64,000 nucleotides of DNA from Ulota crispa (lineage: Eukaryota; Streptophyta; Bryopsida; Orthotrichales; Orthotrichaceae): contig OY987242.1 of NCBI GenBank assembly GCA_963920765.1, forward strand, positions 2,258,789 through 2,322,788, read 5' to 3'. Of the stretch, positions 1-53,410 are shown in pieces. The position numbers and the translations under genes are program-made. How positions within the stretch are numbered: the first letter of the stretch is position 1; each line of letters begins with the position of its first letter. The notes beneath the pieces are model-generated. The model was not told the DNA's origin. It saw only the letters and a program-made list of their open reading frames with translations, and did not search any database.

Positions 1-1005
1 AACTTTTTGGGTTTAAGGTGGAGTACAAAATGGGACCCTTGTTTTTCCCAATTTAACCCCTAAAGGACCATTGTCCCTTCAGGGGACAGGTTGGACTTTG
101 GGCATGTACCGATGGCTAGACTACTTTGTGTGATTTTTTGAAACTTTTATTGAAGATGGGGAATTCAAAAATCTATGTGGGCATCTAAATTTTCCTTCAA
201 CCAACATTTGACAAAGAAGTTATGCATGAATTTATGAAAATTTGGGGAGGACTGCCCATTCAAGGAGCCCAAAATCTTCTTTAAAATTTACTTTTTTTTA
301 CAACAAAAATTTGAAATTGGTTCTTTAGATTTTTTTCTTCACAAGAAGTTTTGAATCATTCAATTTCAATCAATGACATGAAAGTTACAAGGAGTTTTTG
401 TTTGCGGGCAGTTATGGAATCTCTACTCTAAAATAAACTTTGAAGTTTTTCATTTTACTCAATTTTCAATATTTTGGAAGAAAAATTAACCAAATGAAGT
501 AGATTGTTCATCACAACATTATTATAGTTGGGATTAGCATTTTTCATTTCCATAATTAACTTTTGAAAAGTTTAGTATTTTGACTCATTCTCTACTTCTT
601 TGTACTTACTATTTTTTCCCGTGTGTTGTATAGTTCCAATTGATTTGAAAATTCTCTCACACATACCTAACTTGATATCCTACATGGCAAAAATAAAGTG
701 CAACTTTGGGTAGAGCAATTTTTTTGTTATGATAGTGGTCAAAGGCTTTTGAAATTTTTGGGTAGCATGGAAAAAACTTTTTTTTCACTTTAAATGTAAA
801 TATCTCACTCCTCTCCATTTGGAATGAGCTGAATTTTTTCCCACAAGTACCTCTTCCAGTTTGGGGCAAGATCCTATGATTGAATTTCCCAAAATCAAAA
901 CATAAAATCCCTTTTTTCTAAACCTCCAAGAAGTAGCAGTTTTTAGTAATTTTGGTCAAAACAAAAAAAGGGCTTGGTCCTTTAGGGGTTAACTACAAAG
1001 GTGTT
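1..1005. repeat. 257-bp-family MITE (family T), cut by the window edge and split by a TTAA-type element
   Basis: Bases 1-56 match the right half of the family seen whole at 16955-17211, 18773-19028 and 45359-45615: a GGTGGAGTACAAAATGG stretch, then CCCAATTTAA. The TTAA in its terminal repeat is where the element at 57-988 sits. After that element the sequence resumes TTAAC and runs to GTGTT at 1005, which fits the family's expected AAC...GTT end. The left part lies before the window. Confidence 0.6.
57..988. mobile_element. Non-autonomous TTAA-flanked element (piggyBac-like), copy 1
   Basis: The element starts CCCCTAAAGGACCA and ends TGGTCCTTTAGGGG, a 14 bp terminal inverted repeat, with TTAA directly outside each end (53-56 and 989-992). 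It is 932 bp and has no transposase frame. Its interior resembles the element at 33525-34242. A TTAA target duplication and ends beginning CCC are hallmarks of the piggyBac superfamily; the assignment is by structure only. Kolobok elements also use TTAA and are the main alternative. Confidence 0.75.
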
Positions 1006-1250
1006 TTTTTTTTCCAACTTGTACGGGTTCGATTGCACTAGGAGATCAGTGTAGAGCTCACTGGAATGAGAGATCACTTCAATATCTCCTGATTTCTGTT
1101 TCAACTTGAAATGCAACTGTAGTCAGTGATTCGGGAGTGCCATTGGGATTAGACTGAGCTAGGCCAGTCTGTCGGTGATGAAGTGTGTCAGATTCGGAGT
1201 GCAGTTGTAGTGGCGATCTGAAATGGGGATTGATGAGAACTGTGGTGCAG

Positions 1251-2897
1251 AACTGCGAGCTGAATGTGATGCAAACATCGTGGGGGGCAGTGACAGCGCA
1301 GAAGAGGCAGAACGCCACCGACAACACCGGCTTTTCCTTTCAAAACTGCCGAATTACTGGCGCCGGGCAGGTGTACTTGGGGCGGGCCTGGGGACCGTTT
1401 TCCAGGGTAGTGTATTCGTATACGTGGATGAGTGACGTCATTTATGCGCCGGGTTGGTTCGACTGGGGCCTGGCTGATCGACAATTGTACGTTGCTTTGC
1501 CCTGGTTCGCCTCAAATCTCTTTGGAACCCATTGAATACATCTTCACACTTGGTGTTAAGAGTGGTAATAGCAAAGGAAAATTAGATGCATTTGGACACA
1601 CCTTTACACTCATTCATATTGCTAATATCCCTCTTAACACCAAGTGTGAGCATACCCTTAGCATTGTTCTAAAGAATATTTGCACTTTGTGTTACAGCAT
1701 TTGCACGATAACTAGCCAAATTTGATGCATTAAAAATGCACATCTTATTTTTAATTTCAAGAACTCTCAAAATTCTTCTCCCCCGTCCTTGTTCACAACG
1801 TGTGATTCACAAATAGTCAATTGATTAATCATCAAGTGGAACACAGATTTAAGCTCACTAAGCTTAAAATTAAACAATGATTCCAAGGATTATTGCTTGA
1901 CATGCTAGAATTGTATGTCATGAGAATCTATAAAAGGGTCCAAAGTATTTCTTATATATCTAAGTTTGGCAAGTGTCAAACCATCTTGCGAATGCTCTTA
2001 TCAAGGGTTTCAAAAGCATAGATTTCATACTAAATCCCCGAGTTCCACTAGATTCTTAAAACCTAATTGGTTGAGAGGGTGATAGTTGAGACTTATAGCT
2101 TCACACCTTGTTCTTGGTCTAAGCTTCTCTAGAAATGCTTATATGGCACCCTACATGCTCTTGCCTGAAAATGTATGCCTGGTGAATACAAGTGCGTGGG
2201 GTTGACTTTGAATATGCCCATACTTCCCACTTTGAATTTCACAATTTATTCAGACAATGTTCAGAAAAATATATTCTATGAAAATCTGATATCTCATTCA
2301 ATTGCCATTGAGACTCGAGAACATGAAGGGAACTTGGATATCAAAATTAGTACATACTGAGCTCTATCAATAACTAGATCTTGCATTCCACTTACAAGGA
2401 ATACTAGGATGATCCCATGCTCTGCTTAGTCAATGGCAGAAAATAAAGAGTGTTACCATGAAATTGTGAACTGAGTAATTGAATGAAAGGTCGAAAGAAT
2501 GAACTCAAGAGTTCGATTGAGGATTATCAGCTTCTTGGATTTGGAAGTTTTTGCAAGAAAAACCACAATTAAGTCCTTCAACGACTAAAGGGGGCCTACT
2601 GAAGTTCAGAGCTTACATTGAAGTGTTCTAAACATTATTTAATTGATACAGGGGTCTTGAATACAGGTGACGGTGAAATGTTGTGTGTGCTTTATAATTT
2701 GCAGGTCAGTGTATTATGGCCAATACAGATGCTCTGGCCCTGGATCAAACGAGGCTGGGAGGGTGGCTTGGTCGCGTGACCTGACTGACTGGGAGGCAGC
2801 ACCATTTCTGTCGCTCAGCTTTGTGGACGGCGATGCTTGGATTCCACAAAGCATTAGACCAACAGGAGGAATACAGTGTAATGGGGTCCCTTGTTAG
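1251..2897 (+). CDS. Pectin methylesterase (pectinesterase), 3' exons only
   Basis: This is the C-terminal part of a cell-wall pectinesterase (carbohydrate esterase family 8), which removes methyl esters from homogalacturonan. Exon 1251-1486 carries the family blocks [30 protein letters not shown] and GWFDWG. The D/R signature of the right-handed beta-helix active site is partly visible as LGRAWG. Exon 2705-2897 carries [37 protein letters not shown] and ends at TAG. The 1218 bp intron has a GT donor at 1487 and a TTTGCAG acceptor. The start of the first exon is uncertain: a GTGCAG acceptor precedes 1251, but the frame is open further upstream. The N-terminal half, with signal peptide and first catalytic Asp, is not in the window; 5' of here are two repeats. 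It converges on the GNAT-BRCT gene. Within the family it looks closest to the PME31/QRT1-like type, from memory only. Confidence 0.88.
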
Positions 2898-3344
2898 GCT
2901 TTTACTTAAATTACTCATAACTGAGGGTTAGGACCGGTCAGTTGACGGAATTTCACATATAGTAGTTTCAGCCACAATTGGTACAGCACTATAACAAGGA
3001 AGTCAAGATGTTTTAAATTTATAAATAAAGAATGTTCACATTACCGAAACTTCACTTTGTTCTAAGGACTCCTTTTGGAAAATCAGATATCTGTTATAAA
3101 GAAATTTGCAAGTTGCCCAAATTTCTAAATAAGTAGGCGGAACGGCACTTTCGTGTTATACAAAATCGAATTTATAACAAAAATTTCTGTACAATGAACT
3201 GCAATTTCTGGCAACTCGTTTTTAACCTAGTAGAAACGAATTTCAAAAACATAAGCTCAGCAAGTCTAGAAGTAGTTGAAAAGATCTTTTGAATCACTTC
3301 ATCGATATGGTGGGAAAAAATACCACTTCAATGATCGTTCGTGA
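2898..3344. other. Intergenic region between convergent 3' ends
   Basis: This holds the 3' untranslated sequence of the pectinesterase gene (+) and of the GNAT-BRCT gene (-), which end 447 bp apart. It is AT-rich, with no further reading frame or repeat that I can support. Confidence 0.5.
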
Positions 3345-9296: not shown

Positions 9297-10550
9297 CTTA
9301 ACCTGCCCTGAAATAGATCTTGCAACTGCTGAATTCCGTCGCCTGAAGGACAAAGATTGGAAGGCTAAAGAGCGTTCTCACGTGTAACTCAGCATAAAAT
9401 GGCGTAAGCAACTTGGCAGCACAAGCCAACACTCCAGAAAGAGCACGAACCCTAGACTCCGAACCTCAATCCCCAGATACACTACCACTCCACCGTAGTG
9501 ATCTCGAAACACAACAAAGAGCGCGGCAAGAGCATCCACAAAAGATGAAACACTAACACTCGCGAGCCTCAAATGCGTCAAAAGAAGCGCACGAACAAAA
9601 AATCGAGAGAAGATGATAAGGAAGTCCTTGAATCAACTCCGCAAATGAAGCGCATTACTTATAAACAGAAGAAAACCGACATGAACTAAGCCTAATTGCA
9701 ACTTTTAGTGCCACAGATTTCATCTACAGCTTGAACAAAGAACACAAATGGACAGAGCACTCCACATTCATAATCGGCAAACAGGGCTCGAAGAAAACGA
9801 TAAGAGGGGTCGGCGCCCTAATCAGAAGCAAACTAAGCGGTGAAATCTTCACAAGCAAGTTACAGAGGCAGCAACGACATAAATTCCGTCGTAAACTAAA
9901 TTCTGCACCAATTGCCAGGAAGATTAGATCATGGACACTGCAGAATGGCAAGCAATGGCACTCTCGCAGTAAAAAAATAGAAGGTATTGTTCGTGGAATT
10001 GCGTGCAGATAATTATGAGAAATTTGATATTCCTGCGGTGGCGGAGGCTTCGTGGTGAAGGCAGCGGGGGTGGCGCCATCTTTGTTCAAATGGGGTGGTT
10101 CCCAGAATCCCAGGCTGCCGCATCAGCGTTGTTGGCGCCAAATTTGAATTCGAAAGTGGGATCCCGAGACCGCCAACCCATCTGGAACCGCCTCAGCCGT
10201 GGCACATACGTCGCAGTGACACGTGGTCGCGGTTTGGTTTGATTTGATAGTTGGGCGCCAGTTTCAAAGCGTGGTTCTGTTTTACCAAATTTTCAGTTCA
10301 TTTCAATGCATTTCCGTAGGTCTAAACGATGTTGCTGTATTGTATACGTTCTCATGTGTTGTATAAGAATAGGGTATATGAGGAGCGTGAATCTCATCAG
10401 AGATGTAAATTTTAAGCTAAGTCACAAACATATTACTAGTCAACTAGGATTTTTTGGGGAATTTTTGGCATTTGTCATGAAACCACTTTTTCAAATACTA
10501 AATAGTTCTCATATGAATATAGCTAACACTTTTGGTAGGTAACATCCTTT
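9297..10550. promoter_or_regulatory. 5' flank of the GNAT-BRCT gene
   Basis: This is upstream of the minus-strand start codon, in DNA less AT-rich than the surrounding repeats. No TATA box or other site can be placed with confidence. Small open frames occur on both strands but resemble nothing I know. At 10546-10555 a lone CCTTTAGGGG looks like the right end of a TTAA-type element whose other end I could not find. Confidence 0.35.
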
Positions 10551-10558
10551 AGGGGTTC

Positions 10559-10788
10559 TAAAGGACAAGGCAGCCCTTTGCTACTAGTACAATATGGTGT
10601 ATTTTTCTTGTATTTGGAGTGCATCCACACCTTTATTACATTTGCAATCAACAAAGAAGTTAGAATATAGATCAATGTTGTTCTAGTGAGGTAGTCAAGA
10701 TCCCAAATTAAAACTTTTTGTTGGTAGCAAATGTCAGTTACACAACAACATACATAGTTTGTATTATAATAGCCTTGTCCTTTAAGGG
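10559..10788. mobile_element. Short TTAA-type element, inverted relative to its neighbour
   Basis: The right end is CCTTTAAGGG followed by TTAA (10789-10792). Read in reverse complement it matches the 226 bp elements at 10793-11018 and 47926-48151 (shared GACATTTGCTACCAA-like and AACTTCTTTGTTGAT stretches). The left end is degenerate (TTCTAAAGGACAAGG), so the start is approximate. Confidence 0.65.
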
Positions 10789-10792
10789 TTAA

Positions 10793-11018
10793 CCCTTAAA
10801 TGACTATAGGGCATAGTATATACGCTGCCGTATAATTGGCATTTGTTATTAATAAGAAGTTCTAAATTGGGATCTCAAATAGTTCACTAGAACCGCTTTG
10901 ATCTATTCTCCAACTTCTTTGTTAATCTCAAATGTATTAAAGGTGTGAATCTTTTCCAAATACAACAAAAACACCTTATATTGTACTGGTCGCAACAGCA
11001 CACTGAGACGTTTGAGGG
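10793..11018. mobile_element. Short TTAA-type element, 226 bp
   Basis: It starts CCCTTAAATGAC directly after TTAA and ends TTTGAGGG before TTAG. It has the same length and clear sequence similarity to 47926-48151. It shares the single TTAA at 10789-10792 with the element on its left. There is no coding capacity. Confidence 0.75.
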
Positions 11019-11022
11019 TTAG

Positions 11023-19028: not shown

Positions 19029-19032
19029 ATTT

Positions 19033-19589: not shown

Positions 19590-20282
19590 CCCCTAAAATT
19601 CTTTTGTGTTTAGAGGCCCAAAACTGCTTCAAAATACTAATCCCCAAACCAGGGTCAAAATCTTCATTGAAACTTATCTTTTAACAAATCCAACCATAGG
19701 ATCCTTTGGTTGACTTGCACAAGTACATTGTCCCAAAATTTCAGAATGAACATCCCCACCAATTGCAAGATCCATGTGCCTAAACTTCAAAATGTAGGTT
19801 TTTCTAATCCTTCCAAAAGGTGAAGTTTTGATTTTCAAACTTTTTAGAGAAAAACCCGTATGTTGTATTTCTTGTGCAATTTTGGCAATATGTTGGAAAA
19901 TGGGTTGAAAGCATATATAAAAAAATTTAACCTCTTCCTACCTTCATTGCCCGCAAAAGAAAACTCCTTGTAACTCTTACCTCATTATTTGGAATTGAGT
20001 GATTCAATTTTTTTTGAGTAGGTATCAATCTATACAATTCTATGAGAAAAAAAAAAATTTAAAATAGAATATATATTTTGCTACCTGGTTTGGCATTGAA
20101 ATTGAAAAAACCTTCTAACTTTTGCAATACTTATCCAAATGACATGAAATAAAACTTCACATGTAGATTATGATGAGTTACATCCATCCTAAAATTTCCA
20201 TGAAAATTTCCAAATTATGAAGTCAATAGAACCTGCCCGAGTTCTCATAAAGCCCAAAGTGGGTTCCTCGGGCCTTTAGGGG
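19590..20282. mobile_element. TTAA-type element (long subfamily)
   Basis: It starts CCCCTAAAATTCTTTTG and ends CCTTTAGGGG, with TTAA at 19586-19589 and 20283-20286. It is the same family as 49027-49938 in the opposite orientation (both contain AACATCCCCACCAATTGCAAG or its complement). It is shorter, probably by internal deletion. It is non-coding. Confidence 0.8.
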
Positions 20283-20417: not shown

Positions 20418-21310
20418 CTCCTAAACGCGCCCCAGCACAGTTTTTCTCAAAAAAAAAAACACTCAAAACTGCATTTTCAGACATTTGAGCCCAAGGACAA
20501 TATTTTTCTTTTTTCTGCAAAATCTAACCATGAGATCTTGCATTAGACTTGTACAAGGAGACACGATGAACGTTTCATGAGTTTTGACCGTATAAATTGA
20601 CAGATGTGATCATTTGAAGTTAGTATAGAAATATTTTTTGACCATTACCCAAAATTTCAGGTTTTTTTGACCACATGTGGTAGACATTTTTGCACTACTG
20701 ATGCACAAGAGATTTGTGTAACATGCTTTAAATCATGTTAGGCATATTTCCAAAAGCTTTTAAGGTCAACAAAGACTTGGAATATTACTACATTGACTTG
20801 CATTGCAAACATGTGCTACTAATTTACAATACACTAAGGTTTTTAGCAAACCAATTTTTTGAGGGTTTCTTTTTTTAAACTAAAAGTCTTAACGGTGGAT
20901 TGATAGTCTTTACCTCTATTGCCAAACACACAATTTTTTTTGAAAATAAACCAAATTTCTAGCAACTATTGCATTTCAAAAGCTGCTATATTTACCTAAT
21001 ACATTAATAAGCTTATCTCCTATAGTTTTATTTTGGATTTACTACAACAAAGGGTCATGCCTTCATTGGTTGCCTAGAGAGAAGTCAACAAAAAATGGCA
21101 TGCCTAACTTACCCCTTGAGAAAAAAAAAACACCATAAAACACTATTACATCTAGAATTGTAAATTTGATTTCAACAAAAATTATATCCCCCCTAGCCCT
21201 CATGGAATTGTTTCAAAACAAAAAAATCAAAAAATTGATCAAAAATCCCAATAGAGAAAGTTTGCCTAAAATCCAATTTGTTCCTTATAGGGACAATGGG
21301 CTTTTAGGAT
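20418..21310. mobile_element. Probable TTAA-type element, decayed ends
   Basis: TTAA then CTCCTAAACGCGCCCC at the left, and GGGCTTTTAGGAT then GTAA at the right. The ends are related to the family's but less well conserved, so this is a tentative older copy. Confidence 0.45.
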
Positions 21311-24541: not shown

Positions 24542-24766
24542 TGTTACGATACAAGATCAAGAGTCGACATTTCTTTTCTATTTTGAGATCATAACCTAAT
24601 GTAGAAACAAACACTAAGAGACGCAAATGTGACATTGAAAGCATTCCATTTGTATTAAACAAAATGTCAAGTGAGGAACAAACCTCCTCACTTGGTTTAA
24701 GAAAGAAAGAGGAAGGGTAACCAACCTCTAACCAACGTAACCATCATTACAAACTAGTTCGTAACA
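24542..24766 (-). repeat. 3' LTR of the Ty3/gypsy element
   Basis: Direct repeat of 30357-30580. It is the 3' LTR because the element is read on the minus strand. Confidence 0.93.
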
Positions 24767-27700
24767 TTACCCCCTTCTTAGGTAGAGTATTCTTACGGTT
24801 TGATGCCGGCGCCTCAGGGTGCTTCTTATGAAACTTTGCCATCGCTAGTGGTACATTCTCTAAATTTGCCGCCGGCTCCCAAGAATTCTTTTTTGGTCCG
24901 TAGCCCTCCCAAGAGACTAGATATTGCAATCTTCTTTCCTGACCAAAAATCTGTGAATTAAGAACTTTGTAGACTTCCCATTCAACATCTCCATCAGGAG
25001 TGGTAATCGGTAGGGGTGGTAATTGGCGTCGTCTCGGAATGGAATCATGACGATATCTTTCAAGCAAGGAGACATGGAACACATCATGAATTTGCAATGT
25101 TTTTGTTAATTGTAAGCGATAAATAACATCGGAGAGTTTAGCAATTACTGTAAATGGTTCCAAAAACTTTGGGGTCAGTTTTTAAGATGGCTCCGTTGTT
25201 GTTATATTATTGTGCCAAAAAAGAACCTTGTCGCCTATTTGAAATGTTGATTGTAATTGTATTCCGCGATCATAATTGCATTTGGCGTCCTCCCCTGCAA
25301 TTTTTATTATGACCTTAAGTTCTTTGTAGACTTGTTGTAGGTGTTGCACTCGGTCCTCCTCCGCAGGCACTGTAAATGTGGTTAGTGTAGAAACCGAAAA
25401 TGCCGGATGATAATCATAAGTGGCATAGAAAAGAGAGAACCCTGTTGCAGAATGATTTGCGTTGTTATACGCAAATTCCGCTATTAGGAGGAGATCGGCC
25501 CAATCATCTTGCCAGGTTGTAGTGAAAGTTCGAAGAAATTGCTCAAGCACTTGATTTACCCTTTTGGTTTGCCTGTTCGCCTGAGGATGAAAAGCCGTGG
25601 TTGAAGATGGCCAAATCCTAAGAAGTTCGCAAAGTCTTCTCATGAACTTAGAGACAAAAACTGGCCTACAATCTGAAATTACCTCCTCCGGTATGCCATG
25701 AAGCTTCCAAATATTATGTAAATATAATGAAGCGGTCTCGTTGGAGGTAACCGTTTCCTTTGTAGGAATAAAGTGGCCTAGTTTTGTGTTTTTATCGACC
25801 ACCACCATGATAGAATTATGTCCACTGCTATTTGGTAATTTTATTATGAAATCGGTAGAAATTCTTTTCCACGGTACATGATCGGTCGGAATGGGTTGCA
25901 CTAGTCTATATCTAGGATGGTGAGTTGATTTCGACTGTTAACACAAGTCACATCCTTCAACGTACCGGTGAACATAGCGACGTAATGTGGACCAATAAAA
26001 AATTCGGCTAACCAAATCCAAAGTTTTAGTTCTCCCTTGGTGTCCCGCGGCTGGTGCATCATGCCGAGATCGCAAAATTTGCCGCTTGAGTTCCTTATCG
26101 TCTGGTACATATATCAAATCCTTAAAGCTAAGAATTCCATCATTCAATGTATATTCTTGAAGTCGTCGGCGTATATCTCGAGAAGGTTGCTTGAAATTGT
26201 CTATGAAAAATGACAATAGTGGTTGTAGTATGGCATCCTCTTGCAACGCTGTCTTAAGTTGTTCTATAATCTGTACATCTGCCTATATCGATTCATGAGA
26301 CTCAAGCGCAACCAATTGCTGTAAGGATTGATTCTCTTTATTTTGTTCCTCGGTGACATCCACTCGTCTAGAAAGAGTGTCTGCCCTTCCATTTAGCGAT
26401 CCCGCTCGATGGTGAATTTCAAAGTTAAAAGTAGATAGGAATTCAGACTATCGAGCTTGGTGTCAGTTTAACTGTTTTGTAGTAAGAAAATACTCCAAAT
26501 TTTTGTGGTCCGAGAATACCTGGGTTTGATGCAGTGATCCTTCCAAATATACACGCCAGTCTTGAAACGCCAAAATTATACTTAAGAGCTCCTTATCATA
26601 GATATCATAGTTTTGTTTTGCTGGAGACATCTTTGAACTACGAAACGCACGAGGGTGGAGATGCCCATCATCCCCATGCTGCAAAGAATAGCTCTTGTTG
26701 CCACATCGGATAAGTCCGCTTCTACAATGAAGGGTCGTTCAAAATTAGGGTAGAACAATACTGGTACTTAGAGAAATTTTAATCAAAGTTCCATGAAAGC
26801 CCGGTCCACTTCTATGGTCCATTCAAATTTTTTATCCTTTTTTGTCAGCATAATAAGGGGAACGGCAATCCTAGAATAATCACATATAAAACGCCAATAA
26901 AAATTGGCAAAGCCAAAGAATGCTTGCATTTCCTTCACGGTTTTTGGTGTAGGCCAATCCTTAATGGTTTGAACCTTGTCCTGGCACATTTCCAACCCTT
27001 TAGGAGACACCACCATTCCTAAAAAATTCAATGAATTGACAATGAAACTGACACTTTGATTCCTTGGCATAAAATCCATGATTCTTCAATTGTTGAAGAA
27101 CTTCCTACACAACTCGTATATGTTCTTCTAGATCTTTTGAAAAAATGAGGATGTCGTCCAAATATATTACTACGGAAATGTCCAATAGATTTCCATAGAT
27201 CTCTTGCATGTAAGATTGAAATTGGGCAGACGCATTGGTTAATCTAAAAGGCATCACTAAATACTCGAACAACCCACACCATGTTTTGAATGCCGTTTTG
27301 AACTCATGTCCCAATGCCATCCGCATTTGGTGGTATGCGTGTCTTATATCCAGCTTAGTAAAAATCTTTGCTCCCACCGACCGATTTGTAAGCTCCGGAA
27401 TAAGGGGTAACATGTAGCAATTTCAGACTATGACTTTATTCAAATTTCAATAATCTACGCAAACTCTGAGGGAACTATCTTTCTTCTTGGCAAATACAAT
27501 TGGTGCCGATATCGGGGATTTGGAATGTTGAATCTATCATTTTCCCAAATTTTTCTCTAAATACTTGCGAAGCTTTTCTAATTCCGCCGGTTACATAGGT
27601 TGGAGACCAGTATTTCGTGGCTCTTAGCCCTGCTTAAATTCAATCCTCGTGTCCGCCATGCCGTGTTTTGGCAACTCATTTGATGCTTGCTCACTAAAAG

Positions 27701-33524: not shown

Positions 33525-34242
33525 CCCCTAAAGGACCACTTGTCCCTACGGGGGACAAATGGGATTTCAGGCATGTACTTATGGCTGAACTACTTTGTGT
33601 GATTTTTTGAAACTTTTATGGAAGATGAGGAATTCAAAGATCTATATGGGCATCTAATTTTTACCTCATTCCAATATTTATTGAAGAAGTTAAAAATGAA
33701 TTTATGAGAATTTTAGTTCAATGGGCAGCCCAAAAGCTTCTTCAAAAATTGCATCTTTTTAAATAAAAATTTGTGGTTGGTTCTTTAGACTTATGTATAT
33801 GTAAGAAGCTTTGAATCATTCAATTCTAATTGATGAGATAAAAGTTATGACAAGTTTTAGTTTGCGTGTAGGCATAGTTTTGAGATTTTCCACACCTACC
33901 CGCAAACTAAAACTTGTCATAACTTTTATCTCATCAATTAGAATTGAATGATTCAAAGCTTCTTACATATACATAAGTCTAAAGAACCAACAACAAATTT
34001 TTATTTAAAAAGATGCAATTTTTGAAGAAGCTTTTGGGCTGCCCATTGAACTAAAATTCTCATAAATTCATTTTTAACTTCTTCAATAAATATCGGAATA
34101 AGGTAAAAATTAGATGCCCATATAGATCTTTGAATTCCTCATTTTCCATAAAAGTTTCAAAAAATTACACAAAGTAGTTTAGCCATAAGTACAAGCCCAA
34201 AATCCCATTTATCCCTCATAGGGACAAGTGGTCCTTTAGGGG
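33525..34242. mobile_element. TTAA-type element that is a near-perfect palindrome
   Basis: It starts CCCCTAAAGGACCACTTGTC and ends with the complement GACAAGTGGTCCTTTAGGGG. The two arms of about 347 bp are near-identical inverted copies around a centre of about 22 bp near 33885. The flanks are TTAG on both sides (33521-33524 and 34243-34246), a direct 4 bp duplication. The arms resemble the element at 57-988. A transcript would fold into one long hairpin. Confidence 0.85.
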
Positions 34243-34246: not shown

Positions 34247-36149
34247 GTAGGGTTGTTATATATGAATTAAAAGTCAGTTCAGTGCATCACTTACTAGAGC
34301 ATCATTCGTAACCCCTAAAGTTCTTCAACTATGCTTCACCAAAAAAACATTTAGAATGAGTTGTTTTGATAGCGAAGGCAAACAAATAAGGGGCGTTTCT
34401 TCTATTGTGCATGGGGGTGCTATGCCATGAGAGGAGATCCTTGAGCCGTGAGCAACCTTTAAAATCTTGGCAAATTTTTGCCAAAATCTTACCTTGAATT
34501 CCAATTGGCTACCATTACATTAGAATAATCAAGTTAAAAAATGGATGAAATTGCCAAATCCGTCCCCAAGCTAACATGAAGTTTGCCACAATTTGGATGA
34601 AATATACTAGTATTAGTAGGTTTTGTGGATGAACGTTTAGACTTCATTGATTCTATCCATTTTTGTCCAAATTTTTCTTACCTACTCACGCTAATGGGTG
34701 CTTGTCTACTTGTTGCACGACCATCAAAAAACCTGATTTTAAAGGTTGGCCTTAAGCCATGAGCCTAGATTTTTGTCAAAATACTCAATTTCACCTATAA
34801 CCGTGTACATAGGACCCTATAATTATGCATTTTGAACTTTTATCTTTTGAAAAACTTGCCTTTTTCTAATTTTTCATTGATTTTGAGCTCAAAATATGTT
34901 CTTGCTCACCAAGTCTTGGCTAATCGCTCACAAACTCACCATTTTATGCTCACGTAATGTCGTCCGTTGCTAAGGAAGCAGCTTGCACAACAAAAAAATG
35001 CTTGAAAATTATGGTCCAATGGTCTTTGTGCAATTTCTGAAAAACCAAGGGTATCTATATGACAAACTTCAAGGGTATCCTTAAAATTTTCCCAAAAAAT
35101 AGTAATGTCAAATGAAATCTTGGTGCGATTTGCTGAAGGATGTGGTAGTAAACTACTCCATCATGCTATAGTAAAAAAGTGAAAGACATTTGCCACACAA
35201 ATTGTGAGATTGTATGGTTTGATGTGAAAAATGGTTTGTTTTGGGTGCATTCAAATATTGAGCAGCTCTAATTTGGGGAGGTTTTTGCACCAATTACTTT
35301 CACTTTTCTGCTTAAACTCTCTTAGGTTGATCTTGTAATATAGCTAGCTATGTGTCTAAAATGTTTCATAAAATTTTGAATTGGGGGACACATACAAAAA
35401 ATTAGAATAAAAACTAGCTTCAAGAGATTTCTCATACAGAGCTATTTTTTCAGCAATTTTAGCTTCCACATCCAATAATCTTTTCAAAATGTGAACTATA
35501 GAGTTTTAGATTTTAGCTAGCTTTAGAGGAAGGAAGAAAAAAGAGAAGGAATTAGGTCTAAAATTGTGACTTGGACAAGCTTGATTAACATAGGGGCACA
35601 TCCACCTAAGGTGAAGTAAAGGCCACTAAGCAAAGATAGTTGCTTTCATGGAATGAAGTTGGGTCAAGATCTGCAAGGAAATAGCTTTGCCCCTCAACCT
35701 TTGAGCTAGATTCCAAAATTTCAGCTAATGTAAATAATTGTGCTCATCCTACCCTTTGAGCAAAAATAACTACATGTTCCATCATAAAATTTCTTCTTTA
35801 AATTGAAATGGTTTGAAAATTGTTGCATTAGAAAAATATTCCTTGGGAAAATGTACTTTAAATGTTTTGTAGAGATGTATTCATTATTCTATAAATACTA
35901 GCTTGCCCAAAATTGCTATGTTGCCTAAACATGTTGTTTGGTCCTTTAGGGGTCAACTCAAGAGGGTGGATGAGAGTGTAACTTCATTTTTCAATTGGTG
36001 GGGGCTAGTTGAGTGGGTGTTGGAGGAGTTTTCAGGGTTTCAATGGAATTACAATATTGCAAAACTAGCAAAGGTCCCATCAAAATAATTTGCCCTTTCC
36101 GCAAATTTGCTCATTTCCTAGTGACCTTATTTTCCCCTATAGATTGTGC
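34247..36149. other. Intergenic DNA with two isolated TTAA-type element ends
   Basis: GTAA then CCCCTAAAGTTC stands at 34308-34319, and TTTGGTCCTTTAGGGG then TCAA at 35937-35956. They could be the two ends of one 1.6 kb element (34312-35952) or remnants of two. Only the outer nine bases of the ends match each other. Near 35040-35100, GGGTATCC and TTTTCCC stretches echo the element at 31068. No gene is seen. Confidence 0.4.
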
Positions 36150-36153
36150 TCAA

Positions 36154-36796
36154 CCCCTCAAGGCCCATGCTCTTTCGTGAGTATCTCAGAATCTGTTCTT
36201 GGATGAACAAAATGTCAAAATTTTGATAAGTTGCATCAAATTTTGAAAAATTGTAACTGTACAAATTCAAACTAAGTATGTTAAAGATCACATAGCAAAA
36301 AAAAACTTAACAATATCTCTTATGGATTGAAAGATTATAACATTTGATCAAGAGGGTGTTAAAACTGCGAAAGTGATATGAAGTCTTTCAATCCTCTTTT
36401 CACATCTCAAATTTAAAATTGAGGATACCAAAAAAGTATGAGTATGTAGAGTACATGTGTAACCCTAATTAGTTTATGGCTTCTTAAAATATACCCTACA
36501 ACTTTTTAAAGTAAGTTTCTAATGTGATTAATTCTCCAAGTTCTAGTGTACTTTAGGCTCATTTCCAAGAGCTCTCAACACTAGAAAGTGAAGAATTTGC
36601 AATAGATACCCTTGCACAAAATCTTAAATAGAAAAATCATAATTAGTCATTTTCAAAATCAGATTTTTAATACTAAAACAAGACTTCAACAAGAACTTTA
36701 AAAATAATGATCATTGTAATTAATCATGAAAAAAATTTAGGCATCCCAAATTACAAACAAGGAAGGACAATTTTGGTCCTCTTGGGCCTTGAGGGG
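36154..36796. mobile_element. TTAA-type element, 643 bp
   Basis: It starts CCCCTCAAGGCCCATG and ends GGGCCTTGAGGGG, a 13 bp inverted repeat. It is flanked by TCAA on the left and TTAA on the right. It is non-coding. Confidence 0.7.
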
Positions 36797-36800
36797 TTAA

Positions 36801-43431: not shown

Positions 43432-43499
43432 GACCGAACGAAAGTTCATAACGAACGGAAAACTCTGCTGGTGTTCACTTTCATTCTTCTGGACATTAA

Positions 43500-44269: not shown

Positions 44270-44273
44270 TTAA

Positions 44274-45042
44274 CCCCTAAAGGCCCAATTCTAGAAGAAA
44301 AATAGGTATAAATAACTACCACAAATTGCCATGACTAGGTCACAATAATTGCCTTACAATTGCACAAACAACTGTATAACATTTGCACAACTACAATCTA
44401 GTCGTGTAATTGTTGTGCAATTATTATGCAGTTGTTTATGCACTTGTAAGGCAGTTATTGTGACCTAGTCGTGGCAATTTGTGGCAGTTGTTTATGGCAT
44501 GTTTTTCTTCCCTTGCAAGGGGGTGAGGACAAAACATAGATGTGTTATAAAATGGTACTTCCGTAACTTTGATGAAGTTTGCTTCAAAAGAGAAAATAAG
44601 AAGCAGAATGTTTAGTAATAATCCATATGGTCAAACACTCAAAAAAATGTTTTGGATTTTTATGTAATGAATTTAGAAGCATTTATCATTTAATATTCAC
44701 AAGAATTACAAATTTTACTCATAGATTTCAAATTTTGGTATGATTGGTTAAAAATAAACATTTTATCCTAAACTTCAAAAATGCAATCTTTTGATAGGAG
44801 AGAACATCATTAGTTTCCCAAAATAGTAAATTTTACAACACTAGCAAATATTGAAGTATTTGCCTTTGAAAATTTCTCCTTGGTGGAGTCTAACTTGGAT
44901 TGACATGATTCAAGTTAAGTTGGAAAGTAGACTTGAGCTTTTATTACAAAAAAAAAGGTTTTATTGAAAAAAGTTTTTTTCATCTTGGTCAGTTTGAGAA
45001 AACAGGCAGCGACCAAAAAATGGTCAATTGGGCCCTTAGGGG
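44274..45042. mobile_element. TTAA-type element, 769 bp
   Basis: It starts CCCCTAAAGGCCCAATT and ends CAATTGGGCCCTTAGGGG. The inverted repeats are about 17 bp with small differences. TTAA is on the left (44270-44273) and TTGG on the right. Confidence 0.75.
44309..44495. repeat. Nested foldback sequence
   Basis: An inverted repeat of about 60 bp per arm: ACCACAAATTGCCATGACTA at the left and its near complement at the right, with a spacer of about 60 bp. It lies inside the TTAA-type element and is probably a later insertion. Confidence 0.6.
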
Positions 45043-45340: not shown

Positions 45341-45358
45341 CGCGTTTTTAGAACCTTG

Positions 45359-45615: not shown

Positions 45616-45619
45616 CTTG

Positions 45620-46100
45620 ATCCTACCTTAATGCACCCCACTCTAGTAAAGCTAACATTCAATAAATAGGTGAATTTGCTATGCGCACTAATAAAGAAGA
45701 TTGGTAAATTCAATATAATATGAGTTACACTATTTAAATGTTCTTTCAAATAGTTTGACTTAAGTGGGCAAAATTTCAAGGAGATTTTGCAAACACTTAT
45801 CTCAAGAAGATAGGATGTGAAGGGTGCCACATTGTGGAGTATTGGCCATCAAGTTGTTACTTGAGGGACAGTATAGGTCATTGTCAAACCCCTAAAGTAC
45901 TTGAAGAGTAAGGGTAGGAGGCATGCTACATTTTCATACTAATTAGGTAAATTCACCCAAATTAGTGTAAAGGGGTCTTGCAAAGGCTTGCACTAATTGA
46001 AATAACTTGTAGACAATGTTGCTTGAAATGAATGGCTTTTGTGTATTTCAATTGGTGGTTTTGTTTGGTGCATCTTTCATGTATAATAATCATTAGTACT
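45620..46100. other. Intergenic DNA
   Basis: Nothing recognisable. Confidence 0.4.
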
Positions 46101-46102
46101 TA

Positions 46103-46693
46103 CTCCCTCTGTCTCAATATAAAGCTCCAATTCAGGCATAGTTCTTGTCCCACTAAAAAGCTCTCTTTTGTTGATTTCAATTGCTAAGAAAGCGTTTGTC
46201 ATATCCAATGATCTCATGGGGGCAAGTTGAGCAATTAAAGAGCATTCCTCTCTTAACAAGCTTGGCCTTGCCCATATGAGGTACCATTGTTGCTACTAAT
46301 CTTTAAATCATTAATAATGAGAAGCTAGCAACATGTACAAATATGGTACTTTTTGCATGAAATTTGGGTGCCCAAAGCATAATATCAAAGCTAGAGATTT
46401 TGCACACATTTGGTAGATGGTATATTGATTCTAGAACGCATGTGTCATTAGTACAAAGACTAAAATAGTGAGGAGACGGCAGCCTTCACAAACTATGCAC
46501 AAAAATGATACTTTTTGCATGAAATTTGGATGTCTAAACAACAGCATAAAAACTTGAGATTTTACAAATATTTGATAAGTGGTACAATATACAGTATTAA
46601 TTCTAGAATGCATATGTCACTAGCATAATAATTCTAAATACAGTTAATCCCTCATGGAGAAGTTTTTTGGAGCTTTATGATGGGACAGAGGGG
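46103..46693. mobile_element. Stowaway/mariner-like MITE (family S), copy 3
   Basis: It starts CTCCCTCTGTCTC and ends GGGACAGAGGGGG between TA dinucleotides. It is 591 bp. Its interior is collinear with 11772-12353 and lacks the nested insertion seen in the kinase-intron copy. Confidence 0.8.
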
Positions 46694-46695
46694 GT

Positions 46696-47921
46696 AGTTT
46701 GTATTGGCTTTTTGAAATCACAATTGACGCTTAGATCCAATCAAATAGAATATTCAAACAAAAGTGCCAAATCCAAAATAACTAGGTCTAGCTACAACAT
46801 AAAGATGGCATCATATTCTTGTAGAGTTGGGTAATAAATTTGCCTTTCATATTCATCTTGATTTTGATGTTGTGTTTGCTCTTACATCTCTTAAAAGTGA
46901 GTGAACGTACTAATCAATGGGGAAAATTCTACCTATTCAAATTGATTAGATCCACATGAATTCCATTTTATAATCAGTTCACAAATTGGAGGTATAGAAA
47001 TCATTAACCCATTAAGGACTGGTCGACCAGTTTCAGGTCGGTTTTGACTCTTTTGAGTTTGTAGAGAGAGCATGACAAGGAATTTGATGAATGAAGTGGC
47101 AAAGGGGATGAGTTTGGGGAATTGGAAAGTGAAGAGTTTAGGACAATAATCATGCCAGTCTAAGGTGGCATGTGGTTAGAGGGTTGAAAAAACTAAAAGA
47201 GTACCAGTTGAAAATACATCAATAAATGCAAAATGATGGCCATAATAGCTAAAAAGTGAGCATAATTCATGATGCATAACACTAAACGTTGCAAGATACT
47301 TCCATGTGTACAATTAGATCTTTGATAGACATCTATATTCAATAACCCTAAAATGTCCCCCAAATGGAAATGCAAAGGATTGCTCACCCCAGAATCGATC
47401 ACAATTGTTAAAGGATTAAGAGATACTAAGAGTTTGGAAGTTGATAGGAATTTTGTTCAACTCTTACAATTTTTTTGGAAACAAACAGAAATACATCTCA
47501 TTTGATTAAGTGCAACTTTTAAATCCAAATGAGCACTCAATTTTGGACCTCTCAAAATGTTTTAGAGAATTTCCAAGTAGCCTTTTGCCAAGAAATTGAA
47601 AAATGGATAAATTAGAGAATGAAGGTCCATTTTATTTTGTTTGATTCAAGTTTTGAGTTTAGTTTCTTGTTTCATTCCACCTTCTTTTGAAGATTCAAGA
47701 TGAATTAGGCATGCTAGCATCTTTTTGAGATTTTGAAATTACACGTAATTTGGATTAGCAAGTTTACAGCTAGTCATATGGAACTTGTTTTATTTTGCTT
47801 TTGTTTTTACTTGTGCCTCCTACATAATGCTCAAAGTGGTCACAATGTTGCACAAATTGAAAAACATTTTTGGTTCATTGAGGCTACTTCTAAAAATTGA
47901 CTCTATGAACTACTGAGTTTC
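46696..47921. other. Intergenic DNA
   Basis: Nothing recognisable; short AT-rich open frames only. Confidence 0.4.
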
Positions 47922-47925
47922 TTAA

Positions 47926-48151
47926 CCTTTAAATGACCATAGGCCATAATGTATATGTTGCCATATAATTGGCATTTGCTACCAATAAGAAGTTTTAATT
48001 TGAGATCTCAAGTAGCTTAGTAGAACCGCTTTAATCTATTCTCCAACTTCTTTGTTGATGTGAAATGTAGTAAAGTTGTGAATCTATTCCAAATACAAGC
48101 TAAACACCTTGTATTCTACTGATTGCAGCGACACACTTAGATATTTAGAGG
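47926..48151. mobile_element. Short TTAA-type element, 226 bp
   Basis: It starts CCTTTAAATGACCATAGG and ends TATTTAGAGG, with TTAA at 47922-47925 and 48152-48155. It has the same length and order as 10793-11018. Confidence 0.78.
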
Positions 48152-48155
48152 TTAA

Positions 48156-49022
48156 AGAGAGGTTTATACATATCATGCATTTTCTTAAAAACCTATAAAC
48201 ACTAATTAGGAAAATGAGATCTTGGCGCTTAATAAAGCTCAGCAAAACTCTACTAGTTTTTTTTTCTACCTATTGTAAATGAATGATGTATTCATTTTCA
48301 ACAACATGATGTGAATATATTTCATGATATATAAGTTTGATGTTTTTTTGTAAAAGTATGTGTAGCTTGTTATGTATAAATTTTCATTGTGATATGTTTT
48401 ATAAATGCTAAACTCGTAAGTGTTAATATTATCTTTTTGATACTTTATATCTTTTAGAGTGTTGTTAGTGTGTTATAAAAAATGTTACTCCATATGGATA
48501 ACTTATAAAGAAGGTTAAATCTACCAAAGCGAGCAAGTTTTGACACCGTCAATTGAAGTGGAGCAAAATTATAATTTTCTTTTAAAGCATCTCTAGCATT
48601 GCATTTCAAATTTGACACTACAAAAGATTACATCTAATTTCAAAAGGTCGATCCCAAACATTAAACAACTATGTTTGAAGTGTGACAAACCCTGTGAGGG
48701 CAATGCTGAAGATGCTCTTACATGACAAGCGTAAGATAGAAGTACCTAAAATAGACACTTTTGTGAAATCAATTCAGGAGGAAGGAGCATTGAGATTTTG
48801 ATATCAACCTTTGGTTAGCAAATGGGCATAGATGGGCAAAAAACTGTCCTCATATTATTTTGCAGTTTTATGAAGAGAATATGAATTTTGATGACAAGGT
48901 TGTAGATACACATATTGTGGTCCCTAAACATGTTGTAAATCAGTCATTGAACCTTGGGAAAACAAACAAGGAGAAGATCAAATGGGTGAGCATGAGAGTT
49001 TAAGAAAAAATCACTTTAATGC
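48156..49022. other. AT-rich intergenic DNA
   Basis: Nothing recognisable. Confidence 0.4.
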
Positions 49023-49026
49023 TTAA

Positions 49027-49938
49027 CCCCTAAAGGACCAAGGAGCCCACTTTTGGGCTTTATGAGAACTTGGGCAGGCTCTCTTGACTTCATAATTTGG
49101 AAAATTTTCATGAAATTTTTAGGATAGATGCTACTCATCACAATCTACATGTGATGCTTTATTTCATGTCATTTTGATAAGCAATGCAAAAGTTAGAGGG
49201 TTTTTTCAATTTCAATGTCAAACTGGGCAGCAAAATACATATTCCAATTTTTTTTAAATTTTTTATAGAACTATATAGATTGGTACCTACTCAAAAAAAA
49301 TTGAATCACTCAATTCCAAATAATGAGGTAAGAGTTAAAAGGAGTTTTATTTTGCGGGCAATGAAGGTAGAAAGAGGGTAGAAAAAACATATAAAGTTAT
49401 CTTTTACTCTCAAGTTTGAAAATTTTCAAATGAAAATGAAAAATAAAGTTACTAATTGTTGGTTAGAGCATTCTCACCATTGGGATTAACAATTTTCAAA
49501 TTCTTCCAAAACTTATTAGCATATTAGTTATATCTTTCATTCATCAATACCTTTCACTTTACAATTTTTGTAAAAATGAATCCAAAGTTTTTTTTGGTTA
49601 AATTTTTTTATCTATGCTTTCAACCCATTTTCCAACATATTGCAAAAATTGCACAGGATATACAACATATAGGTTTTTCTCTAAAAAGTTTGAAAAACAA
49701 AACTTCACCTTCTGGAAGGACTAGAAAAGCCTACAATTTGAAATTTAGGCACATTGATCTTGCAATTGGTGGGGATGTTTGTTTTGAAATTTTGGGAGAA
49801 TGTACTTGTGCAAGTCAACCAAAGTATCCTAAGGTTGAATTTGTTAAAAAGTAAATTTCAATGAGGATTTAGATCTTGCTTTGGGGACTAGTATTTTGAA
49901 GCAGTTTTGAGCCTTTAAACACAAAAGAATTTTAGGAG
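49027..49938. mobile_element. TTAA-type element (long subfamily), 912 bp
   Basis: It starts CCCCTAAAGGACCAAGGAGCC and ends AAAAGAATTTTAGGAG, with TTAA on both sides (49023-49026 and 49939-49942). It is the inverted relative of 19590-20282 and keeps internal sequence that copy has lost. A 92-codon open frame inside is not conserved in the other copy as protein. Confidence 0.82.
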
Positions 49939-50117
49939 TTAAAATGGTCAGTGCGACTTGAACATGGAACAACACTTGTCACATTTACATGCAATAAAGG
50001 TTTGATTTGCATACAATTAGGGTTTGCTTTGGGGGAATTCTAGGTGTCCATATGAGGTGCTTCTACCTTACTTGGGTACGAACGAAGCCTCGGGGTTTTT
50101 TACATTCTGTCCTAGGT

Positions 50118-50290
50118 TTGATAACAACCTGGTATGGTTTGTGGCCAGCTCTCCATTTGCGCTCTTTCAAGTGTACAATCTGGGAGGAAGTCTGGCGCTT
50201 ATCTCTGAGCTAGCCTGCACCCAACACCGCCAGATGTGGCAGCCTGCACCATACGTAATGTATCTGACCTTGTATTCCAATCGAAACTAA
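50118..50290 (+). CDS. Possible isolated 3' exon of an unrecognised gene
   Basis: A strong polypyrimidine acceptor (TTCTGTCCTAG) precedes an open stretch of about 57 codons with balanced composition, ending at TAA. The translation contains FDNNLVWFVASSPFALF, VYNLGGSLALISE and ends YLTLYSNRN. I do not recognise the family. No upstream exon is visible; a TTAA-type element ends 180 bp before it. It may be a gene remnant, or the last exon of a gene whose other parts were displaced. The more GC-rich DNA that follows (50291-50423 and 50740-51187) could be its 3' UTR. Confidence 0.3.
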
Positions 50291-50425
50291 ACGAGTGAAA
50301 GGTCGAGTGTGTTATCTCGTTTGATAACGGAGCCAAGTACTGTCTTTCAAATGGAGAGCTTTAACGTGACGTGTACATCGAGTCTGTAGCTTTTTAACTC
50401 AAGCGTCGTGCTTACTTCTCTGATA

Positions 50426-50736
50426 AGGTAGTCTGCTTATAAACCGTCCATCTAAGGGCTGAAGGTGAAACTTTTTGAACTATTTTTCAGTAAATTTTCC
50501 TTGAAAGACAAGAAGAGTTGGCATCTAACCCAAGTTATTTCATAATTTTTGAAATTTTGTGGAATTCAGTACAAAATTTTGAAGTGGAAAGGTCATAGGT
50601 CTCTAAAACCGCCCACCTCCTCAAATATACACTCCTTATACATATTAAAAACTTATAAAAAAAAGCATGTACAGCAAGGGAACATTTGAGAAAGTGGGCA
50701 ATTTTAATGCATGGACGGTTTATGAGCAGACTACCT
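50426..50736. mobile_element. Family R MITE, 311 bp, intact ends
   Basis: The terminal inverted repeats are AGGTAGTCTGCT(T/C)ATAAACC..., about 26 bp with one mismatch. TA stands on both sides (50424-50425 and 50737-50738). The TA target suggests a Tc1/mariner-type element. It is non-coding. Confidence 0.78.
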
Positions 50737-50738
50737 TA

Positions 50739-51187
50739 AGTGTTCTGATGTCGGTGTCGAAGGGTTGAGCTGCAGCTGTGCCACTGAGGGTGGAGAATCT
50801 TCGGTTCTCCTGTGCACAATGAAACACAGCTCGGAGAATAGCATTGCTACATTATAACTGAGTACAGATTTCCAGGTGCACCCAACCTTAGGGATAGCGG
50901 TTTAAGGTTTACTATTGGATGGGCTTCACAAGTTCATGCGTTGCTACGCCAAGCTCCAGAGTCTCAGGTGAAGGCTCAGTCTCTCGTATCTTGCTGGACC
51001 AGGATCGTAGTGGTTATCTGCTCAAGCGAAGTTCTTATAATTTTGCACTAGCTCGGTGGATTTCAAAAGACCTGTAAGTCTTACTTCGCTCACAGCAAGA
51101 GTTGTTGCTTCTCTTCGAATACTAACTGAGGGGTATCCCTTGGTTTATAAGGTGAATTTCAAAATCTCGTATTTGTCGATCCAGCAA
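50739..51187. other. Unassigned DNA upstream of the tRNA gene
   Basis: More GC-rich than the repeats around it, but interrupted by stops in all frames. It may be the 3' UTR of the gene piece at 50118-50290, or the 5' flank of the tRNA. Confidence 0.35.
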
Positions 51188-51261
51188 GCTGGATTAGCTC
51201 AGTTGGTTAGAGCGTGCGGCTGTTAACCGCAAGGTCGGAGGTTCGACCCCTCCATCTAGCG
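51188..51261 (+). tRNA. tRNA-Asn (anticodon GTT)
   Basis: 74 bases fold as a cloverleaf. The acceptor arms GCTGGAT and ATCTAGC pair with one G-U. The D arm is in GCTCAGTTGGTTAGAGC, the anticodon loop is CTGTTAA with GTT in the centre, and the T arm is GGAGGTTCGACCCCTCC. The A box (TAGCTCAGTTGG) and B box (GGTTCGACCCC) of the internal pol III promoter are intact. No intron. The usual T-run terminator does not follow directly: the TA target of a family R element starts one base after the gene. Confidence 0.96.
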
Positions 51262-51263
51262 TA

Positions 51264-51601
51264 TGGTAAGATGCTTATGAACCGAGCATCTAAGAGCTGA
51301 AACTGAATTTTGGGGAGGAATTTTGGGGAGGTGGAACATCTTGATATATTTTCTAGTAAAATTTCCTTAAAAGATAAGAGGAATTGGCATCTAACTCAAG
51401 TTATTTTGTATTTGTAGAGCAATGTGGAATTAGTTATGAAATTTTGAAGTGGAAAGGTCATAGGGCTCTAAAATGGATCACTTTCTCAAATGTATGTCTA
51501 GTGTACATTTTTAAAAGGCTATGCATAAGGCATGTACATGTGGAGTTGATTTGAGGAGGTGAGCGGTATTACTACCCTAACGGAGTTCAAGCCTCTTACC
51601 T
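51264..51601. mobile_element. Family R MITE abutting the tRNA gene, 338 bp
   Basis: It starts TGGTAAGATGCTTATGAACC and ends GAGTTCAAGCCTCTTACCT, with TA on both sides (51262-51263 and 51602-51603). The body matches 50426-50736 in the same orientation. Confidence 0.72.
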
Positions 51602-51603
51602 TA

Positions 51604-52737
51604 TGTGCTTCGCAATCGCAGTGGGGGATGGATTTCACAGGGCTCTTTGGGGGACTAGATTTTTATTTTTTTTATTTTGCACTAAACTACAATTAACAAG
51701 GTATTCAAGTGGTCCTTGCAAGTGAAGTAATGGTAAGTCAAGTCAAGTGTTGTACAAGTAATTAGGGAGTCATGATTGTATGGAACACCATACGCGTTGA
51801 GGTGGCAAGGAGCATCTTACATGCTGCAATTGGTCAACATCCCTTGCAAACTTCCTTGCAATGTATTTTGTGGTAGCAAGGAATTCACTAGCAAGGTTTC
51901 AAACATGTTCTCAACCCTTTTCAAGGAAATTCTCACCAACTCTGCTGGACATTGTTTTTTGTGCCATTGCGGATATGAAGCCCTCAAACTTAGCATTCTA
52001 ATTAAGAAGTACAATCTTTAATAATTTGCAAGTGTGTGCATTCACATCTAATCTTGCTACCCACAAAATTGGAGATGAATCAAGGGCTTATAGAATTTTG
52101 TAAAAATCAGTAAATAGCAATTACATGCCAAAAAATGAGATTTTGCCAACATATGTTGTTTGATCAAATGTTATCATCTCCCATCTCCCACTATCAATTG
52201 TTCCCAAAATTTGCAAGCCCTTTTCTAAGTAGGTGTTCCATTGTTTTCAATGGTCACTTTTTGTGGATCATCCAATTGACTGAGATATGATGTATAAAAG
52301 TTGTAGGCCTCTGGAAACCCTCATTTTGGTGAAAAAACTCTGGGCGCTCAAGGGTTGACCCCTACACGCCCATAAGGATGTTTTTTGACCTTGGGCCTTG
52401 AAAAAACACTATGTACAACCAAAAAAAAGTTGTTTTTCATCTTCTTCTTTTTTCCAAAGTGACCATAAACACATGATCCATCATAGAAGGCAAATAACAA
52501 TCTTCTCAAATATACTCATATTTTTAGGTAACCCAAATTGTGAGAAAACTCAAAATCATGATGTTAGGTCCCAAGTTGCCCTTATTGCAATTTTCATGAG
52601 GTTGGTATGCAATATTGACTTTTGAAACTTTTAGAAGCAATACTATTGGTGCCCATCAATCAAAACACTATTGTAGCTAGAGTATAAACACTCTTGAAGC
52701 TATAGTATGGGCAAGCCACAGCCACCCACTAGAGGTT
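51604..52737. other. Intergenic DNA with diverged TTAA-type element ends
   Basis: At 52355-52358 a TTGA stands between GGGCGCTCAAGGG and CCCCTACACGCCC, the pattern of two abutting TTAA-type elements, but their outer ends are not clear. A 52359-52737 element between TTGA sites is possible. No gene is seen. Confidence 0.35.
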
Positions 52738-52741
52738 TGAC

Positions 52742-53410
52742 CCTTAAAATTTTCAGCAACCCAAAATGGGTTGATCATTTTTTAAGACGGTCATTTCTGA
52801 ACTTAGGAATGTAAAGAGTCACTTAAACTTTGGCTCATTTGAAAGAGAAATAAGTTAGCTATGTAGTGGTGTTTTCAAATTTAGAAGAAGAGTTGCTATA
52901 TTGAATTTACAGAATTTTCAAGCCATGGGTGGTCTTGGAGTTGTAGTGTTAAATTTTGGCCTTAGATTTGTGAAAGTCTTCTATTTTACTCATACTTTTT
53001 GAAATTTAAGGGTGAATTAGTCACTATTGCAAGACCATTTTCTCACTCATTTTTTACCCTAAAAATACAAGACTTGTTTCTATGCATGTGGAACTTGGTT
53101 ACCTTAAGAATGAGCATAAGATGCCAACTTTAAAAAATATAATGTGTCCAAAAGAGCCAATCAAAGCACAATTTCAAGTACTCGACAATACTGATTTCCT
53201 TGTAGTACCCTTCTACATTTTTGTTATAATCTTCTAATCTAATCCTTGAATTGAAACCAAACTTTGTAGAGATGATAAGGACTTGACTTTCTACAAAATC
53301 TTACGGTTACTTTGGCCTAAAAATGACTTATCATACTTCAGGCTTTACCCTTTCATAACTTATAAAATCCATATCCAAAACACCTTCAAAATGGTTGAAA
53401 ATTTTAAGGG
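52742..53410. mobile_element. TTAA-type element, 669 bp
   Basis: It starts CCCTTAAAATTTTCAGC and ends TGAAAATTTTAAGGG, a 15 bp inverted repeat, with TTGA on the left (52738-52741) and TTAA on the right (53411-53414). It is non-coding. Confidence 0.72.

Follow-up and report, generated by a model that had tools for sequence, protein, structure and literature searches.

A large population of piggyBac elements in the genome of the moss Ulota crispa

A 64,000-nucleotide stretch of the genome of the moss Ulota crispa (contig OY987242.1 of assembly GCA_963920765.1, positions 2,258,789 to 2,322,788; hereafter the window) carries a series of short elements with similar inverted, C-rich ends next to TTAA, and so raises the question of what class of transposon they belong to and what moved them. 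A reading of the window made from the sequence only had listed thirteen such elements and assigned them to the piggyBac superfamily. We read all thirteen directly, scanned the 274.8 Mb genome that contains the window for their ends and for transposase genes, and compared fetched loci for sites without an insertion. The window elements are very probably non-autonomous cut-and-paste DNA transposons of the piggyBac superfamily, residing in a plant genome and supplied with transposase by longer elements with the same ends. The piggyBac identity and the 4-bp TTAA duplication of the sequence-only reading are borne out by identical flanks, uninterrupted relatives and matches to a piggyBac transposase profile; the short copies also proved to be non-coding, and the host a plant.

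Terminal ends and target duplication

The ends are inverted and about 10-14 bp long. Exact sites of TTAACCCCTAAAGG number 15,411 genome-wide (7,719 + 7,692), against one in the reversed sequence, which served as the control for all end counts. In the window, where five mononucleotide shuffles served as a further control, 36 sites lie within three mismatches of TTAACCCCTAAAGG; the reversed window has 4 such sites and the shuffles 3-7. The end CCCCTAAAGGACCA occurs 8,876 times in the genome (control 0) and is directly preceded by TTAA in 7,555 cases (85%), and there are 4,241 copies of a second end type, TTAACCCCTAAATGCC (control 0). These controls and the preference for TTAA rule out a chance origin of the ends. 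Outside selected sites, 167,028 bp of sequence contained 71 ends, allowing up to two mismatches in the end and one in the flank; 20 were exact, and the reversed control gave 16. Scaling the 15,411 exact sites by (71-16)/20 yields some 42,000 ends, equivalent to some 20,000 elements, which is rough arithmetic based on the first megabase of one contig.

To define the target duplication we used 24 end pairs collected by the end motif alone. The four flanking bases are identical in 19 of the 24, as TTAA/TTAA in 18 pairs and as TTAG/TTAG at window position 33525; since TTAG is not palindromic, the latter shows a direct duplication. No pair has five identical flanking bases, which rules out a duplication longer than 4 bp. 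Because most loci outside the window were picked by a left TTAACCCCTAAAGG, more weight falls on the right flank, which reads T, T, A and A in 23, 24, 22 and 21 of the 24 pairs.

We also compared the joined flanks of 106 candidate pairs with all loci fetched by then, a comparison in which mispairs and matches between related ends are uncounted. The element L019:6040-6966 interrupts a member of a 226-bp family, and eight uninterrupted relatives cross the junction without a gap; their sites read TTAA in six cases, TTGA in one and CTAA in one. Four relatives cross the junction of L015:3584-4300 (two TTAA, one TCAA, one CTTA), and L027:305-886 has an uninterrupted relative, L024:940-1098, that is 88% identical over 160 bp, with one gap off the junction and a TGAA site. 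For L023:350-1301 and L028:305-1224 relatives cross the junction at sites where TTAA is gone, and support the position only. Judged by relatives that lack the insertion, the duplication is 4 bp, and not the different one that the sequence-only reading had named as decisive against piggyBac.

Transposase genes and long elements

A search of the genome with the PF13843 (piggyBac DDE) profile returned at least 120 matches, with a best E value of 1.3e-73; this is a lower bound, as 116 of 527 candidates were scored. The matched stretch is free of stops in 10 of the 120 rows and contains one or more stops in the rest. The profile matched none of 14 control genomes.

Three long elements, A (7.2 kb), B (5.7 kb) and C (8.0 kb; Table 1), combine a piggyBac transposase with the ends of the short copies. 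Element A was found by its ends in a sample of 20 loci, while B and C are two of six transposase loci from the hit list that were read with their flanks; for a seventh hit, L039, 3 kb was fetched. By inspection, B and C keep the three motifs VDE or IDE, DNFF and GVDVADQ, and A has INE and a frameshift; we take the catalytic residues to lie at these positions. A cysteine-rich C-terminal tail is present in B, in C and, with a stop, in A, likewise by inspection. The B transposase sequence matches the solved piggyBat (E 1.7e-16) and piggyBac (E 3e-13) proteins. A FastTree tree that included 17 database relatives placed A, B and C with eleven database proteins (support 0.989), and the four other hit-list loci, C1 to C4, in a separate group (0.963). 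The partner foreseen by the sequence-only reading is represented by three same-ended long elements, each with stops or frameshifts; all three encode DDE_Tnp_1_7, and none the different transposase that this reading had named as counter-evidence. A single nearby end was dropped as proof that a transposase belongs to such an element, because neighboring copies are too dense (71 ends in 167 kb).

To relate short copies to these long elements, we compared 136 overlapping candidate short pairs with the ends of A, B and C. Both ends match A in 10 pairs, C in four and B in one; a few of these are mispairs (such as L027:305-1086), and A and C have two pairs in common. Each set of derivatives matches its own source over 50-590 bp of subterminal sequence. 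Two non-coding copies in the window have both ends of a long coding element. One, 57-988, is 82% identical to A along 202 bp on the left and 74% along 357 bp on the right; for the other, 20418-21310, the values against the ends of C are 80% and 72%. As judged from the sequences, this sharing of ends between long and short copies is what internal deletion would predict.

From established piggyBac biology, transposase made by the longer elements would bind the C-rich ends, cut the element out and join it to a TTAA that is duplicated in the process. Deletion derivatives that keep only the two ends of a long element, or in one window copy a palindrome of one end, would be moved in trans, at times that we likewise infer. 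At least three transposase-bearing elements would each have given rise to short derivatives of their own.

Several points weigh against this interpretation. None of A, B and C is intact as read: a frameshift and several stops interrupt A, and the matched stretch contains one stop in B and two in C. Loci C1, C2, C3 and C4 have no such end pair in the stretch fetched, which included limited flanking DNA (for C2, 1.8 kb at one end). The 226-, 640-, 770- and 912-bp families and the element at 52741-53410 have no full-length source among the loci searched. Loci outside the window were mostly selected by a left TTAACCCCTAAAGG, which biases their left flanks, and some uninterrupted sites no longer read TTAA. 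The ends start CCCCT, one base off the CC[C/T]T tip given, with a length of 12-19 bp, for piggyBac terminal inverted repeats in the excerpted text of PMC2872659; a coral family in that paper, CMITE family III, likewise begins CCCCT.

Two other accounts of the movement have to be weighed. piggyBac is not the only superfamily to duplicate TTAA, and another, such as Kolobok or Sola3, might have moved the elements while the piggyBac genes are bystanders; the four of six hit-list loci without such ends fit this account. We nevertheless consider it highly improbable, since three long same-ended elements encode DDE_Tnp_1_7 and their ends recur in short copies, including two window elements. Two Pfam scans of ten open reading frames each found no other transposase domain, and no genome search was aimed at Kolobok or Sola3. 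The other account, favored by the sequence-only reading, holds that a single piggyBac transposase moved all families and that the interiors are mere passengers. The outer 10-14 bp and the TTAA are indeed common to the families, and cross-movement by a related transposase is possible. Yet A, B and C are distinct: the transposases of B and C share 45% identity across 183 residues, each long element has derivatives of its own, and the window copies 57-988 and 20418-21310 match different long elements, which argues against one transposase-bearing source for all families. A single transposase is thus unlikely and appears too simple a description, given at least three transposase-bearing elements and several window families without a source. 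Movement by piggyBac transposases of more than one long element remains our preferred interpretation.

Other transposase-related loci were seen alongside these. A second group of piggyBac transposases (L030:4728-6155, L031:4650-6338, L034:4783-6162 and L038:1814-2980) has no CCCCTAAA ends in the stretch fetched; some lie in open frames of 389-476 amino acids, and L030 has N for the expected D of the third motif. This group may consist of genes taken over by the host or belong to other families. Pairs of transposase matches with equal scores and opposite orientation, about 15-20 kb apart, occur on C7 (18203169-18204302, minus strand, and 18223004-18224137, plus strand) and on C2 (36765124-36766008, plus, and 36779670-36780554, minus), and are possible inverted duplications. 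A further element, L016:305-5387 (5.1 kb), has matching ends with TTAA on either side and contains an internal inverted repeat (89%, positions 311-1191 aligned with themselves); it was rejected as a transposase partner, as no transposase match was found in the three open reading frames scanned.

Left-end palindromes

Five copies are palindromes built from the left end of A: window 33525-34242, L014:305-1044, L021:305-948, L027:305-886 and L034:934-1651, whose right end is decayed. The L014 and L021 copies have TTAA on both sides. The two arms within a copy are 95% identical at 33525, 93% in L014, 90% in L021, 77% in L027 and 96% in L034, and arms of different copies are 65-91% identical. L027 is the exception to this pattern, with one arm nearer to L034 (89-90%) than to its own partner. 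The likeness of arms in four of the five copies suggests either homogenization within a copy or repeated re-formation. The copies also have interior sequence in common that is missing from A.

The five palindromes, the one uninterrupted site and the flanking duplications suggest that symmetric left ends are usable. We propose, tentatively and with the balance still somewhat against it, that piggyBac transposition in this genome accepts two identical left ends, and that 582-740 bp family A units, and probably B-type units of about 64-71 bp, multiplied with the ordinary 4-bp duplication. Such palindromes could also have been moved by the transposase of another lineage. They might instead be local inverted duplications of ordinary elements and not products of transposition, as an inverted duplication at a break can make a palindromic structure. 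The excerpted text of PMC11707139, which reports that piggyBat failed to transpose in human cells from donors carrying two left or two right ends, speaks for local duplication. Against it stand the occurrence of five copies at separate places, their shared interior, the TTAG on both sides of 33525 and TTAA on both sides of L014 and L021, and the relative of L027 that crosses the junction, at TGAA, without a gap there. We therefore regard local duplication as improbable.

Very short pairs with a similar look were noted as well. L012:4080-4150 is 71 bp long, has TTAA on both sides and is close to two copies of the left 26-31 bp of B. Four further short pairs of 64-71 bp, lying between TTAA, are recorded by coordinates only (genome G000, C1:241512-241590, 531562-531640, 3324724-3324795 and 3362792-3362870).

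The window elements and their setting

The thirteen listed elements total 8,600 bp, or 13.4% of the window. They proved real, with small corrections: the left end of 10559-10788 is eroded, although a relative, L036:2528-2761, keeps it in full; the last element starts at 52741 and not 52742; and a decayed member had been missed, so that 10322-11018 is a run of three elements. Not all flanks read TTAA, several being one-base variants: those at 33525, 36154, 10793, 44274 and 20418 depart from it (Table 1).

Table 1. Long elements that encode a transposase, and elements of the window.
Position	Length	Strand	Feature	Flanks (left/right)	Evidence or relatives
L022:2535-9705	7,171 bp		Element A; same ends as the short copies	TTAA/TTAA	DDE_Tnp_1_7
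C5:10867270-10873007	5,738 bp		Element B; ends CCCCTAAATGCC	TTAA/TTAA	DDE_Tnp_1_7
C7:11814408-11822432	8,025 bp, including a nested 918-bp element		Element C; such ends	TTAA/TTAA	DDE_Tnp_1_7
57..988	932 bp	+	Derivative of A	TTAA/TTAA	
10322..10557 (approximate borders)			Decayed, previously unlisted member of 235-bp family; adjoins 10559		BLAST to L015, L036
10559..10788			Short element of 226-230-bp family; outermost left bases gone, reads GGGGTTCTAAAGG		
10789..10792			Single TTAA common to two adjoining elements		
10793..11018			Element of 226-bp family	TTAA/TTAG	
19590..20282	693 bp		Member of 912-bp family (that of 49027)	TTAA/TTAA	
20418..21310	893 bp	-	Derivative; both ends match C	TTAA/GTAA	
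23452..24369	918 bp		Element	TTAA/TTAA	82-84% in L018, L028
33525..34242	718 bp		Palindrome; both ends match left end of A	TTAG/TTAG	94% to own reverse complement
36154..36796	643 bp		Element	TCAA/TTAA	77-78% in L017, L018, L037
43500..44269	770 bp		Element; poor right end		90% over whole 770 bp at L029:305-1067
44270..44273			Single TTAA common to two adjoining elements		
44274..45042	769 bp		Element	TTAA/TTGG	
47926..48151			Element of 226-bp family	TTAA/TTAA	
49027..49938	912 bp		Element	TTAA/TTAA	About 90% in L017, L022, L023
52741..53410	670 bp		Element; different end CCCTTAAAATTTTC, equal to its right end	TTGA/TTAA	

Interiors fall into families: 57 and 33525 have about 350 bp in common, 19590 and 49027 form one family, and 10559, 10793 and 47926 another. 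The single TTAA between adjoining elements at 10789-10792 and 44270-44273 fits insertion into a TTAA that flanked an earlier copy. The element at 52741-53410 has no long relative among the other loci searched and is the least supported of the list. A derivation of 36154-36796 from B was dropped, the match being only 27 bp near the end. Compared with their best long match in the fetched loci, 11 of the 13 elements diverge by about 10-29% (two without a single match over 60% of their length were left out); most therefore look old by sequence comparison, as an upper bound on age drawn from the few loci compared.

Several other features lie in or near these loci. An unlisted end pair 1,641 bp apart (34312-35952) has GTAA before CCCCTAAAGT and a TCAA-type flank after CCTTTAGGGG, and may consist of two unrelated decayed ends. 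On the minus strand, 24750-25937 weakly matches an integrase core (E 1.3e-05, short of the curated threshold) and is probably the remnant of a long terminal repeat retrotransposon. Positions 46100-46696 hold a repeat some 600 bp long that itself contains repeats; it has 80-87% identical counterparts in L025, L029 and L035 and no tie to the CCCCTAAA families. Directly after element 52741-53410, short repeated peptides in several translation frames mark a simple tandem array (53407-54391). The open reading frames of the window include what we take to be a plastid-type dihydrolipoamide dehydrogenase gene, and a host open reading frame in L032 (PF10067, DUF2306) has nine database relatives, one of them, 73% identical, from the moss Ceratodon purpureus.

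These elements resemble the piggyBac of Trichoplusia ni and the piggyBat of Myotis in their TTAA duplication, C-rich ends, DDE_Tnp_1_7 domain and, by inspection, cysteine-rich tail, as well as in the three D motifs of B and C and the match of B to the solved transposases. They differ in their plant host, in long elements of 5.7-8.0 kb, in the very large number of short copies and in the left-left palindromes. The CMITEs of coral, as described in part of PMC2872659, are likewise short, non-coding, C-rich at the ends and associated with TTAA, and their family III starts CCCCTCAG; they are about 100 bp long with a conserved interior, whereas most copies here are 226-950 bp, in several families, with three long transposase elements. 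That piggyBac is rarely described in plants, as the sequence-only reading held, is fair, but the superfamily has been listed before. Excerpted texts place it among angiosperm superfamilies of miniature inverted-repeat transposable elements (PMC10004981) and state that piggyBac-like elements occur in plants (PMC8086355), and repeat tables give 1,230 copies (122 kb, 0.00%) for C-fern (PMC6890710) and one copy of 75 bp for Stipa (PMC8319324). Those sources, in the parts available, offer the same superfamily name as repeat-table counts, whereas the present genome yields 15,411 exact ends together with transposase genes and sites free of an insertion. The literature matches listed, with partial coverage of subscription journals, held no report of natural piggyBac in a moss, and the mentions in the Niphotrichum genome paper turned out to be the word 'piggybacking'.

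Taken together, our data show that the large piggyBac population recognized by the sequence-only reading is real. Its most unusual class is that of the left-left palindromes, because bat piggyBac with two left ends is immobile in cells according to the excerpted PMC11707139. In this plant piggyBac is a major repeat class with several transposase lineages, beyond trace annotation, and it offers an extensive natural collection in which to study what combinations of ends a piggyBac transposase can use. Animal piggyBac is already used as a plant tool, excising markers in rice and, as of 2017, discussed and untried in Physcomitrella (PMC5505980, in excerpt), which makes resident moss elements and their transposases of practical note.

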